Source: Stella humosa
GTDB lineage: Bacteria; Pseudomonadota; Alphaproteobacteria; ATCC43930; Allostellaceae
Length of the DNA: 64,000 nt
Assembly (NCBI RefSeq): GCF_006738645.1
Contig: NZ_AP019700.1
Span: 186,001 to 250,000, forward strand
Direction of reading: 5' to 3'
Shown here: one piece after another, positions 59,286 through 63,124 of the stretch
How the letters are laid out: each line of letters opens with the position of its first letter
Position numbering within the stretch: position 1 is the first letter of the stretch
The notes under the pieces: model-generated
Told to the model about the DNA's origin: nothing
The model's database searches: none
What the model saw: the letters and a program-made list of their open reading frames with translations, nothing else
Made by a program: the position numbers and the translations under genes

Positions 59286-60170
59286 ATGCGCCGGGAACTG
59301 CCACCGCTGAATGCGCTCCGGGCCTTCGAGGCGGCGGGCCGCCTGCTCAGCTTCACGCGGGCCGCCGACGAACTGGCCGTGACCCAGGCCGCCGTCAGCC
59401 ACCAGATCAAGAGCCTGGAGGAATGGCTGGGGGTGCTGCTGTTCCACCGCATGCCGCGCCGTCTGGCCCTGACCGATGCGGGGCGCGAGCTGCTGGTTTC
59501 CATCCGCGATGCCTTCGATCGCATCGAGGGATCGGTCGCCCGCGCCAGGCGCGACGATGGCGGCGGGCCGTTGACGGTGACGGTCGTGCCGTCCTTTGCC
59601 GCCAAGTGGCTGGTGCCGCGGCTTGGCCGCTTCCAGGCGGAGCATCCCGACATCGAGGTGCGAATCGCTGCCGACACCCGCCTGTCGAGTTTCGACGACG
59701 GGGTCGACGTGGCGATCCGGGCCGGCCGCGGCCATTGGCCGGGGCTGGTGTGCGAGCGGCTGATGAGCGAGGCGCTCTATCCCGTGTGCAGCCCGCGGCT
59801 ACTGGCCGGGGCGCTGCCCCTGTGCGAGCCCCAGGACCTGCGCCACCACACCCTGCTGCATGACGATTTCGAGCATGACTGGCGGATGTGGCTGCATGCC
59901 GCCGGCGTCGACGGGGTCGACTGGCGGCGCGGCCCGCGCTTCAGCGATTCCAGCATGGTGGTGCAGGCGGCGGTGGAAGGGCAGGGGATCGCCCTGGCGC
60001 GCAGCGCGTTGGCCCAGGAGGACCTGAAGGCGGGGCGGCTGGTGCGGCCGTTCCGAATCGATATCGCGAGCGATCTTGCCTACTACATCGTCTGCCCGGC
60101 GGCGCACACGGGCCGAGCAAAAGTGCGGGCCTTCCGCGACTGGTTGATGCGCGAGGCGGCCGCGGCCTAA
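59286..60170 (+). CDS. LysR family transcriptional regulator, GcvA-like
   Basis: A 294-aa LysR regulator. LPPLNALRAFEAAGRLLSFTRAADELAVTQAAVSHQIKSLE is the typical GcvA/AmpR opening, and FSDSSMVVQAAVEGQGIALARSALA lies in the effector domain. GcvA relatives control glycine cleavage or beta-lactamase; the target here is unknown, with the divergent DUF1127 gene and the NCS2 permease downstream as candidates. An ATGAATTTTCAT inverted repeat at 59247-59258 lies 28 bp before the start and could be an autoregulatory site. Confidence 0.93.
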   Translation: MRRELPPLNALRAFEAAGRLLSFTRAADELAVTQAAVSHQIKSLEEWLGVLLFHRMPRRLALTDAGRELLVSIRDAFDRIEGSVARARRDDGGGPLTVTVVPSFAAKWLVPRLGRFQAEHPDIEVRIAADTRLSSFDDGVDVAIRAGRGHWPGLVCERLMSEALYPVCSPRLLAGALPLCEPQDLRHHTLLHDDFEHDWRMWLHAAGVDGVDWRRGPRFSDSSMVVQAAVEGQGIALARSALAQEDLKAGRLVRPFRIDIASDLAYYIVCPAAHTGRAKVRAFRDWLMREAAAA

Positions 60171-60221
60171 TCTCTGCAGTGAACCAGCGGGCGGTATGGA
60201 CAGTGGAGAGCGCTACCCTGA

Positions 60222-61925
60222 ATGGACCGTAAATCCCAACTGCTGGTCTACGGTCGTGAGGACCGTCTGCCGCCGCATCGCCTTGCCGCCTTGGCATTTC
60301 AGCACCTGATCCTGCTCCTGATGTTCCTGGTCTACCCGGTCATGGTGGGCCGGGGCCTTGGCCTGTCCGACCAGGCCGAGCTGCCGTTCCTGACCATGGC
60401 CATCCTGGCGATCGGGCTCGGCACCGTCGTCCAGTCGCTGCCCGCACCCTGGGGCAGCGGCCATCTGCACGTGCACCAGCCCTCGCCCATCTTCCTGCCG
60501 CTGGCCTTGCAGACGTTGCCGTTCGGCGGGCTGGCGGCACTGGCCCCGCTCGTCGTCGTCGCCGGGGTGACGCAACTGGCGCTGGCGCGCAGCCTGCGCT
60601 GGCTTCGCCGTGCCTTCCCGCCGGAGGTGATCGGCATCGTCGTCATCCTGCTCGGCCTGTCGCTGGTGCCGGGGGCGCTCGAGCGGTGCCTGGAAGAGGA
60701 CGGGCGCGGCGAGGCCGGCATCGGCCCGATGGTGGCCGGGGTGACGCTGGCCATCATCGTCGGCACGGCGATCTATGGCCGCGGTCCCTGGCGCCTGTTC
60801 AGCCTGATGATCGGCACGGGTGCCGGCATCGGCCTGTCGATCGCGTTCGGCCTGTTCTCGCCGGGCGACCTGCGGCGTCTGGCGGATACGCCGGTGTTCG
60901 CCCTGCCGCGGATTGCCTTCGATGGCTGGATCTTCAACTGGAACCTGCTGCCGCTGGTGCTGCTGATCGCCTGCGTGCACACGCTGGATGCGATGGGGGC
61001 CCATGTCAGCGCCCAGAAGCTGGCCGACGCCGACTGGCAGCGCACCGATACCGCGACGGCCGAGCGCGCGATCCGCGCCGTGGGCGGCGGCAATATCCTG
61101 GCCGGGCTGCTGGGCGGCTATCCCGCGGGCCTGTCTTCGTCCAGCGTCGGGCTCTCCTTCACCAGCGGGGCGGTGGCGTGGCGCATCGGCGTGCTGACCG
61201 GCCTTCTTGGCATGGCCTGCGCCTTCATTCCCAAGATCGCGATGTTCCTGGCGATCCTGCCCGAGCCGGTGGTGGGGGCCATCGTCCTGAACGCGGCCGC
61301 CTTCATGATCGCGGCGGGGATGGAGCTGGTCTTCTCGCGCATGCTCAACACCCGGCGGATCTTCATGGTCGGCCTGTCGATCATCGCCGGCATGGCGGCC
61401 CTGCTGCGACCGGAACTGGCCCTGTCGGCGCCGGACTGGCTGAAGCCGGTCATGGGCTCGCCGCTGTTCGTGGGCTCGCTGGTCGCGGTCGGGCTGAACC
61501 TGCTGTTCCGCATCGGCATCTCGGAGCAGGAGCGGCTGGACCTGACGGCGGAAGACCCGCTGCCGATCCGCCTGCGCGACTTCTTCGAGCGCAAGGGCCA
61601 GCAATGGGGCCTGCGCCGGACGCTGGTAGACCATGCCCAACTCGGCACCATGCAGGCGGTCGAGACGCTGTTCGAATCGGGAATACTGGCAGCACCCGGG
61701 GTCCAGGTGTCCCTGCGCTACGACGACCTGCACCTGGATGTCGTCATTGCCTATGCGGGCGAGCCGCTGCCGATCGGCGCCCCCCGGCCGACGCCGGACG
61801 AACTGATGGAAGACGATGCCGCCCTGCTGAAGATGACCGCCCACATCGTGGCCGGCCTGGCGGACGGCTGCCGGCTCCGCACCGACGGAACCGGCAACCG
61901 GCTGGAACTGCGCTTCGAGTCCTGA
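60222..61925 (+). CDS. NCS2-type purine/uracil permease with a C-terminal HATPase-like domain
   Basis: A 567-aa protein. Residues about 20-430 are a nucleobase:cation symporter-2 (xanthine/uracil permease) with about 12-14 helices: VLLIACVHTLDAMGAHVSAQKL, GGYPAGLSSSSVGLSFTSG, ILPEPVVGAIVLNAAAFMIA. After about residue 445 comes a 120-residue soluble domain (QWGLRRTLVDHAQLGTMQAVETLFESG ... DGTGNRLELRFES). Its pattern resembles an RsbW/HATPase_c_2 fold with the catalytic Asn box degenerate. Most NCS2 carriers end soon after the last helix, so this is an uncommon fusion. It converges on the aminotransferase. Confidence 0.82.
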   Translation: MDRKSQLLVYGREDRLPPHRLAALAFQHLILLLMFLVYPVMVGRGLGLSDQAELPFLTMAILAIGLGTVVQSLPAPWGSGHLHVHQPSPIFLPLALQTLPFGGLAALAPLVVVAGVTQLALARSLRWLRRAFPPEVIGIVVILLGLSLVPGALERCLEEDGRGEAGIGPMVAGVTLAIIVGTAIYGRGPWRLFSLMIGTGAGIGLSIAFGLFSPGDLRRLADTPVFALPRIAFDGWIFNWNLLPLVLLIACVHTLDAMGAHVSAQKLADADWQRTDTATAERAIRAVGGGNILAGLLGGYPAGLSSSSVGLSFTSGAVAWRIGVLTGLLGMACAFIPKIAMFLAILPEPVVGAIVLNAAAFMIAAGMELVFSRMLNTRRIFMVGLSIIAGMAALLRPELALSAPDWLKPVMGSPLFVGSLVAVGLNLLFRIGISEQERLDLTAEDPLPIRLRDFFERKGQQWGLRRTLVDHAQLGTMQAVETLFESGILAAPGVQVSLRYDDLHLDVVIAYAGEPLPIGAPRPTPDELMEDDAALLKMTAHIVAGLADGCRLRTDGTGNRLELRFES

Positions 61926-61935
61926 CGCCGTCAGG
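61921..61935. other. palindrome containing both stop codons of convergent genes
   Basis: CCTGACG-C-CGTCAGG is a perfect 15-bp inverted repeat. The TGA of the permease (61923-61925) and, on the other strand, the TGA of the aminotransferase (61931-61933) occupy its mirrored positions. Confidence 0.7.
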
Positions 61936-63124
61936 CAAGCAGGGGGGCCATCCGGTCCATCGCCTTGTGCAGGCGCTCCGGTGCGCTGGCGAAGCACAGG
62001 CGCAAATAGCCCTCGCCGCCCGCGCCGAAGGCGATGCCGGGCGCGATGCCGACCTTGGATTCGCGCACCAGCCGCTTGGCGAACTCCAGGCTGTCGTCCA
62101 TCCCGTCAACCGCGAAGAAGGCATAGAAGGCCGCGTCCGGGCGGGCGATGCGCACGCGCGGGAAGCGCGACAGGCCCTGCAGCACCACCTCGCGCCCGAC
62201 GCGGCAGCGCTCCACCATCTGGGCCAGGAATTCCTCGCCCTCGTTGATCGCGGCCAGCGCGCCATGCTGCAGGAAGGCGGGCGAGCCCGAGGTGTTGAAC
62301 TGCGTCAGCTTGGCCAGCAGGTCGCCGAAATTGTCGGGCGAGGTGATCCAGCCCAGCCGCCAGCCGGTCATCGCCCACGGCTTGGAGAAGCTCTGGACCA
62401 CGATCAGCGGGTCGTCCGGGCCGGCATGCTCCAGGAACGAGGGGGCGACCGGCCGGTCGTAGACGATGCGCGCATAGACCTCGTCGGCGACCAGCCAGAT
62501 CCGCCGCGCGCGGCAGAAGTCCAGCAGCGCCTTCTGCATTTCCGACGGCATGGTCCAGCCGGTCGGGTTGTTGGGCGTGTTGACGAAGATGAGGCGGGTC
62601 CGATCGTCGACGGCCGCGAACAGGCGGTCGAGGTCGAGGCTCCAGCTTGAGCCGTCGAAGGTGAGGTCGACCATCCGCGGCTCGCCCTGCTGGATCTCGA
62701 CGCAGGAGACGATGTTGGGCCAGATCGGGCCGATGATGACGGCATTGTCGCCGGGGCCAACCAGCGCCTGGCAGGTCAGCAGGATCGCCTGCATGCCCGA
62801 GCCCGAGACGGTGATCCGCTCCGGCCCGCAGTCGATGCCGTAGACGCGCTGCGTATAGGCGGCGATCGCGTCGCGCAACTCGGGGATGCCGCGCTGCCAC
62901 GTATAGAAGGTCTCGCCCGCCTGCAGGGCCTTGGTGGCGGCCGCGTTGATGAAGTCGGGCGTCGTCAGGTCGCCCTCGCCGAACCACAGCGGGATGACGT
63001 CCGGGTCGCCGCGCCCGACCATCGCCACCTCGCCGATCTTGGAGCTGGGAAGGATGCCGGCGGCCGGACGCACCGGGGCCGCGAAGGACAGGCGGTCGGC
63101 GAGCGAGGCGGTCTGGTCGGTCAT
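61931..63124 (-). CDS. class I/II PLP-dependent aminotransferase
   Basis: A 397-aa fold-type I aminotransferase. The PLP lysine is K248 in SFSKPWAMTGWRLGW; NTPNNPTG and VADEVYARIVYD supply the ring-contacting Asn, Asp and Tyr; the substrate-carboxylate Arg lies in GYLRLCFA. It is of aspartate-aminotransferase type, substrate not predictable. The ATG at 63124 gives MTDQTASLADRL. Upstream is a 228-bp region with four 15-bp tandem repeats. Confidence 0.93.
   Translation of the reverse strand: MTDQTASLADRLSFAAPVRPAAGILPSSKIGEVAMVGRGDPDVIPLWFGEGDLTTPDFINAAATKALQAGETFYTWQRGIPELRDAIAAYTQRVYGIDCGPERITVSGSGMQAILLTCQALVGPGDNAVIIGPIWPNIVSCVEIQQGEPRMVDLTFDGSSWSLDLDRLFAAVDDRTRLIFVNTPNNPTGWTMPSEMQKALLDFCRARRIWLVADEVYARIVYDRPVAPSFLEHAGPDDPLIVVQSFSKPWAMTGWRLGWITSPDNFGDLLAKLTQFNTSGSPAFLQHGALAAINEGEEFLAQMVERCRVGREVVLQGLSRFPRVRIARPDAAFYAFFAVDGMDDSLEFAKRLVRESKVGIAPGIAFGAGGEGYLRLCFASAPERLHKAMDRMAPLLA

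Follow-up and report, generated by a model that had tools for sequence, protein, structure and literature searches.

Anti-sigma kinases of the SpoIIAB/RsbW fold dimerise, and CbrA is a carrier-like sensor kinase with an SLC5-like part. For the NAT/NCS2 (SLC23) carriers, a passage of PMC6497670 says that a carboxy-terminal domain is absent, and among the matches listed from open-access papers in PubMed Central there was no NCS2–RsbW fusion. In the canonical members, residues of TM8 and TM10 make the two main nucleobase contacts, with Glu-x-x-Gly as the TM8 motif, according to a portion of PMC5972032, which also refers to prokaryotic NAT branches that diverge and whose function is unknown. The contacting residues in UraA are Glu241 and Glu290, as given in an excerpt of PMC5539350. 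The Stella humosa protein examined here brings known parts together in a new combination.

The window is the whole 64 kb stretch of DNA that was analysed, which sits in a genome of 5.83 Mb. The gene of interest has an ATG start and encodes 567 amino acids plus a stop. A preliminary description made from the sequence alone had placed a carrier with a C-terminal domain of 120 residues here; its position proved exact, and the domain is slightly longer, at about 137 residues. The main features are as follows.

60222..61925 (+): NCS2-fold carrier with a C-terminal SpoIIAB/RsbW-like domain, a putative pseudokinase (ORF list, Pfam, model)
60222..61511 (+): membrane part, residues 1–430 (Pfam Xan_ur_permease; UapA, UraA and SVCT1 are the best Foldseek matches in the PDB)
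61512..61922 (+): tail, residues 431–567, a degenerate SpoIIAB/RsbW-type domain (AlphaFold2, Foldseek, VIA, hhalign)
59286..60170 (+): LysR-type regulator (Pfam LysR_substrate 1.3e-42, HTH_1 2.1e-22)

The LysR-type regulator lies 51 bp upstream of the carrier gene on the same strand and is possibly co-transcribed with it, and a convergent aminotransferase gene lies downstream. An antisense frame of 594 amino acids over the carrier gene (60213–61997, −) is probably an open-frame artefact of GC-rich DNA and not a gene.

Family searches detect the tail faintly. HATPase_c_2 (PF13581) matches the window protein with an E-value of 0.021 (15.3 bits) and the tail alone with 0.0011 (19.4 bits), both below the gathering cut-off of 27.4 bits in the Pfam scan. 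In an alignment of 23 homologous tails (A4, with L066, L073 and L085 left out), the same family matches seven tails at E ≤10, the best at 1.1e-4, and eight other Pfam families match one tail each at the same threshold. The AlphaFold2 model of the tail has a pLDDT of 93.8 and a pTM of 0.87, which rules out a disordered tail, and the 18 best PDB chains found with Foldseek are all SpoIIAB, UsfX or RsbW entries (E 1.4e-5 to 2.3e-4). VIA-align gives Z-scores of 12.1–13.8 for SpoIIAB, UsfX, RsbW and Rv1364c (its RsbW part); LvrC scores 11.6, SiaB 11.2, and the rest, ChpT and DesK among them, 8.3 or less. A histidine-kinase-type domain was rejected on this contrast (8.3 at most versus 12–14 for anti-sigma kinases). 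A profile of the tails also matches the 14 RsbW proteins from the examined loci (hhalign, E 2.7e-7, probability 93). Model, fold search and profile match together identify a GHKL fold of the anti-sigma type, so the RsbW-type fold put forward in the preliminary description is upheld, and the structure prediction and fold search it had proposed as a check returned an ordered domain resembling anti-sigma kinases. Seven PDB sequence matches to the tail at E ~1, all to nickel-binding proteins, were taken as chance. No STAS match was found in the window protein at E ≤10 in Pfam, and its RsbW-type tail differs in this from the C-terminal STAS domain of SLC26/SulP carriers. Against both Stella orthologues (L061, L062) the tail has a dN/dS of 0.26, indicating purifying selection.

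Despite this fold, the tails have lost the kinase motifs. In a joint alignment, the N-box Glu and Asn, the D-box Asp and GGxG are present in 14/14 RsbW proteins, whereas the N-box Asn, the D-box Asp and GGxG are each found in 0/23 tails. The N-box Glu position still holds Glu in six of the 23 tails, and the D-box glycine is kept in all of them as the sole remnant of that motif. The corresponding sites in the window protein are listed below.

61653..61667 (+): degenerate N-box, residues Q478 to T482, in which Q478 and T482 replace the kinase Glu and Asn (joint alignment)
61752..61760 (+): degenerate D-box, Y511-A512-G513 (kinases: Asp-x-Gly), in which Y511 replaces the Asp and the Gly alone is kept

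The N-box had been recognised as degenerate at the outset. The anti-sigma fold, the loss of motifs and the purifying selection together point to an anti-sigma-type pseudokinase that is being maintained, seemingly catalytically dead. Nucleotide sensing, also raised in the preliminary description, is unlikely on these sequences because the Asn, the Asp and GGxG of 14/14 RsbW proteins are gone from all 23 tails.

Tail-bearing NCS2 carriers form two clades, not one. In a tree of 68 rows, one branch sets off the 39 rows of class A (window-like tail; support 79) and another the 17 rows of class B (the second tail type; support 100), and canonical tail-less rows lie closer to class B than to class A; class A is again separate, with a support of 100, in a subsequent tree that had few outgroup rows. 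Class B (L113–L121, L131, L135, L137, L141, L168, L169, L171–L179) has a different RsbW-like tail, which HATPase_c_2 matches at about 2e-5, below the cut-off, in two of the three scanned. The Stella genome holds four tail-bearing carriers, the window one included; two of the other three are class A and one is class B.

2029714–2031402: tail-bearing NCS2 paralogue, same genome
2753870–2755411: tail-bearing NCS2 paralogue, same genome
3558256–3559752: tail-bearing NCS2 paralogue, same genome
2834076: tail-less NCS2, same genome

At the looser cut-off, and with either tail type counted in every sample, tail-profile matches occur in 8/43 genomes of the order. In the large samples scoring stopped at ten candidates a genome, which makes the counts there lower bounds: at least 21/385 genomes in the class (one of these, G106, being a stand-alone RsbW), at least 4/398 in the phylum sample and at least 7/399 in the order of a betaproteobacterial relative. 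Fusion relatives are found in other Alpha- and Betaproteobacteria and in one bin labelled WS1; named relatives with the fusion include Azospirillum halopraeferens, Falsiroseomonas bella, Aquibaculum arenosum and Allopusillimonas ginsengisoli. The fusions are rare but widespread: such a domain on an NCS2 carrier is unusual, as the preliminary description had it, though not unique. Falsiroseomonas bella has three tail-bearing carriers in tandem (L076:7887–13349), and at L183:1653–3345 (−) a tail-bearing carrier gene is split by in-frame stops.

RsbW-like, STAS and PP2C genes surfaced unasked from an all-against-all comparison of the open reading frames flanking these carriers. Pfam scores on the partners scanned range from 4.5e-15 to 1.7e-27 for HATPase_c_2, from 2.4e-15 to 2.7e-20 for STAS and from 1.5e-35 to 2.7e-50 for SpoIIE. 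At least one of STAS, live RsbW and PP2C lies within 500 bp at 12/47 class A loci, and the gaps at linked class A loci are 4–196 bp, measured between matched domains and not annotated start codons. By the same profile search, partners within 500 bp are found at 0/20 tail-less NCS2 loci and 0/24 class B loci; class B loci have no partner-switching neighbours even within 8 kb, and one control locus, L151, has partner genes within 8 kb. The tail-less control loci come from genomes that also hold tail carriers. The NCS2 profile recognised seven of the 20, and the other 13 were judged by a whole-locus search for STAS, RsbW and PP2C, which found none anywhere. With loci treated as independent, Fisher's test of the linkage gives a p of 0.013 when the tail-less loci are the sole comparison and 2e-4 when the 44 controls are pooled; both values are optimistic because the linked loci include close relatives.

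In a later set searched with frozen profiles, 4/13 loci are linked (L180, L182, L186, L191), all four having both STAS and RsbW beside the carrier; five of the 13 are in genomes already known to hold the fusion. The first linked loci supplied the seeds for the STAS, RsbW and PP2C profiles, one PP2C seed piece being in the wrong frame; the profiles were then iterated on the discovery loci and were frozen for the 13 later loci alone. Unlinked class A loci number 35/47 in the first set and 9/13 in the later one, some of them on short contigs, which were counted as misses in all groups. L183, a broken gene whose pieces were searched apart, and L189, with a weak PP2C match about 1.1 kb off, were likewise counted as misses. 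The linkage counts exclude L138 (the same place as L083), L085 (a fragment), L170 (a long-frame PF00860 match unrecognised by the NCS2 profile) and L146 (an unfused RsbW that has a spurious long frame).

Mapped on a 57-row tree, the linkage requires nine or more changes on starred branches, and its distribution shows no more clustering than labels placed by shuffling (220/500 shuffles as low). Because it is scattered over the tree, the linkage is not one inherited arrangement and has arisen or disappeared repeatedly. Four linked rows fall in the 11-row subclade (SH-aLRT 99) to which the window protein belongs. At the genome level, SpoIIE is present in 19/21 tail-positive genomes of the class versus 119/364 others, a comparison in which genome size and kinship are confounders and G106 again stands for a stand-alone RsbW.

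The linked modules are compact. The gene order is PP2C, RsbW, STAS and one or more carriers at L067, L068 and L108, and RsbW, STAS, carrier at L180, L182 and L186; at L071, L075, L078 and L084 the RsbW domain starts 4–12 bp past the carrier's last codon. All three kinase motifs occur in 13/14 RsbW proteins at linked loci, L182 being without two by the pattern used, and 16/16 STAS proteins match a motif bearing a Ser, which we take to be the SpoIIAA phosphosite. The partner genes look functional from these motifs. Some modules also have sensors of their own: response-regulator, Cache-HAMP or FHA parts are present in the PP2C phosphatases scanned, and hybrid or histidine kinases lie near the carrier at L067, L074, L108 and L124, the hybrid kinase of L108 having a TorS-type sensor. 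The Cache-PP2C gene of L071 and the FHA-PP2C genes of L079 and L080 are about 5–6 kb from the carrier.

Some of these neighbourhoods have further features. A gene for an ammonium transporter–PAS–histidine kinase fusion (L067:1323–3923, +) lies directly upstream of the PP2C, RsbW, STAS, carrier, carrier series, which suggests that a nitrogen signal feeds the relay at this locus. An alanine racemase gene follows the carrier–RsbW pair at L071 (10132–11358, by Pfam) and at L075, L078 and L084 (by BLAST cluster). The STAS–carrier pairs with FHA-PP2C at L079 and L080 come from metagenome bins labelled Bordetella parapertussis, a label that looks doubtful.

No such module accompanies the window gene. 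Profile searches of the whole window found no STAS, RsbW or PP2C gene, near the carrier or farther off, and none of the other fetched Stella tail carriers has a partner gene at a distance of 8 kb or less. The Stella genome does contain a cluster of STAS, RsbW, hybrid kinase and response-regulator–PP2C genes at 586–595 kb, and this module could act in trans on the window carrier. A Na+/Pi cotransporter gene (L128:7476–9164, −) lies between the two RsbW/STAS pairs of the cluster.

On balance we lean, with some reserve, towards a model in which the tail docks STAS proteins and a partner-switching relay controls a non-canonical NCS2 carrier, the module acting in trans in Stella. The tail, presumably cytoplasmic, would be a docking site for unphosphorylated, anti-sigma-antagonist-like STAS proteins. 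A separate live RsbW-type kinase would phosphorylate the STAS protein and cause it to leave the tail, a PP2C phosphatase of the SpoIIE/RsbU type would restore binding, and docking would switch the carrier in its activity or its conformation, so that the carrier would take the place that the sigma factor has in classical partner switching. Since the tail itself should not phosphorylate STAS, it would be a STAS receiver in competition with the live kinase. In its simplest form the chain would run from sensor to phosphatase, STAS, pseudokinase tail and carrier. The suggestion in the preliminary description that the extra domain regulates transport gains indirect backing from the homologous fusions that adjoin STAS, live RsbW and PP2C genes.

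In the membrane part, Pfam Xan_ur_permease matches residues 23–395 (E 3.6e-40), the full-length model has a pLDDT of 86.9, and the top PDB matches are UapA and UraA (both with Foldseek 1.6e-14) and SVCT1; with the 7+7 TM fold of UraA/UapA, the window protein belongs to the NAT/NCS2 (SLC23) group. Motifs were compared across 54 class A carriers, 25 class B carriers and 20 tail-less NCS2 proteins, 13 of which form a distant branch (TSYIES-type TM10), leaving the other seven as the closest comparison. The sites concerned in the window protein are given here.

60987..60989 (+): TM8 substrate/proton acid position, Asp256, where canonical NATs have Glu (alignment)
61131..61169 (+): TM10 NAT signature region, residues 304–316, with Ser307 and Ser308 versus canonical Gln/Glu/Pro and Asn

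The TM1 Gln-His motif is present in the window protein (Q27, H28), and among class A carriers the Gln occurs in 52/54 (the other two being gaps) and the His in 41/54. At the TM10 position none of the 54 class A or 25 class B carriers has Gln or Glu, as all 20 tail-less controls do, and seven class A rows have Pro. An acid in TM8 is kept in 14/54 class A carriers, 15/25 class B carriers and 20/20 controls (Glu in the seven canonical NATs, Asp in the 13 distant ones), and Arg or Lys occurs there in 32/54 class A carriers. All seven canonical controls combine Gln-His, TM8 Glu and TM10 Gln/Glu-Asn; the window protein, with Asp256, does not match the TM8 Glu-x-x-Gly motif of canonical NAT nucleobase symporters. 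These substitutions make a classical nucleobase an unlikely substrate of the tail carriers and the original label of nucleobase permease doubtful.

The same losses raise the alternative that the NCS2 part is a sensor (transceptor), in which a ligand bound to a transport-defective fold would alter the tail's grip on STAS and so feed the relay. TM10 changes comparable to these abolish or strongly reduce transport by UapA, according to a section of PMC5972032, and the ammonium transporter–histidine kinase upstream at L067 is itself a carrier-like sensor. However, in several modules the phosphatase is fed by sensors belonging to the module, an arrangement that puts the carrier at the output end; the window protein retains both a TM8 acid and the TM1 Gln-His, and the loss of canonical residues could equally mean a new substrate. 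We therefore regard a sensory role as rather unlikely, though it is the alternative to be taken most seriously.

A tail that does nothing but stabilise the carrier dimer, as a dimerisation or stability module, is improbable. It would fit the loss of catalytic residues, the majority of loci unlinked to partner genes, and the dimeric state of SLC23 carriers, with UraA needing the dimer for transport in the account given in part of PMC5539350. Yet it leaves the repeated linkage to STAS, RsbW and PP2C genes unexplained, along with a set of tail-specific residues: G432, F454, W462, R465 and D501 are conserved in 23/23 tails and D506 in 21/23, and a purely stabilising role gives no reason for the last five of these. 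Binding of a small molecule, nucleotide or other, in a remodelled pocket with feedback on transport draws on the GHKL fold and the invariant D-box glycine, but the Asn, the Asp and GGxG shared by every RsbW protein aligned are missing from every tail, and we consider it very unlikely. That the linkage is chance or hitch-hiking and the tail an evolutionary relic is scarcely credible, since for all the patchiness of the linkage and its absence in Stella, the tail is under purifying selection and the linkage was replicated in the later loci with none within 500 bp at the 44 controls.

Docking of STAS on the tail remains the preferred reading and, if true, would mean a membrane carrier under direct partner-switching control and would account for a non-canonical NCS2 branch that resembles a nucleobase permease by family search alone. 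A broader proposal, to which we give a little less than even weight, is that these proteins are a separate class of partner switching, in which an SLC23-fold protein bears a dead anti-sigma-kinase domain that binds STAS or lets it go, coupling nutrient uptake, or membrane sensing by a transport-defective carrier, directly to RsbU/RsbW-type relays without a sigma factor. The compact gene clusters would allow STAS docking, phosphorylation and carrier activity to be tested together.

The known systems each share part of this design. Like SpoIIAB, RsbW and UsfX, the tail has the anti-sigma kinase fold over its whole length (Z 12–14) and, near some relatives, STAS and PP2C genes; unlike them, it has lost the ATP-binding and catalytic motifs and is fused to a membrane protein. 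The canonical NAT/NCS2 carriers (UraA, UapA, XanQ, SVCT) have the fold and the TM1 Gln-His in common with the window protein, which differs in its extra domain and in lacking the TM8 Glu and the TM10 Gln/Glu/Pro-Asn. Carrier-like sensor kinases, such as CbrA and the ammonium transporter–histidine kinase of L067, also join a carrier fold to a GHKL domain, but theirs is a histidine kinase, whereas the window protein bears a degenerate domain of the anti-sigma type. A further parallel is with SLC26/SulP carriers, which likewise combine a 7+7 TM inverted repeat with a C-terminal domain from the partner-switching toolbox. There the carrier bears the STAS side, whereas the tail carriers bear the RsbW/SpoIIAB side on the related SLC23 fold, which would make them the mirror case of the SLC26 STAS domain.
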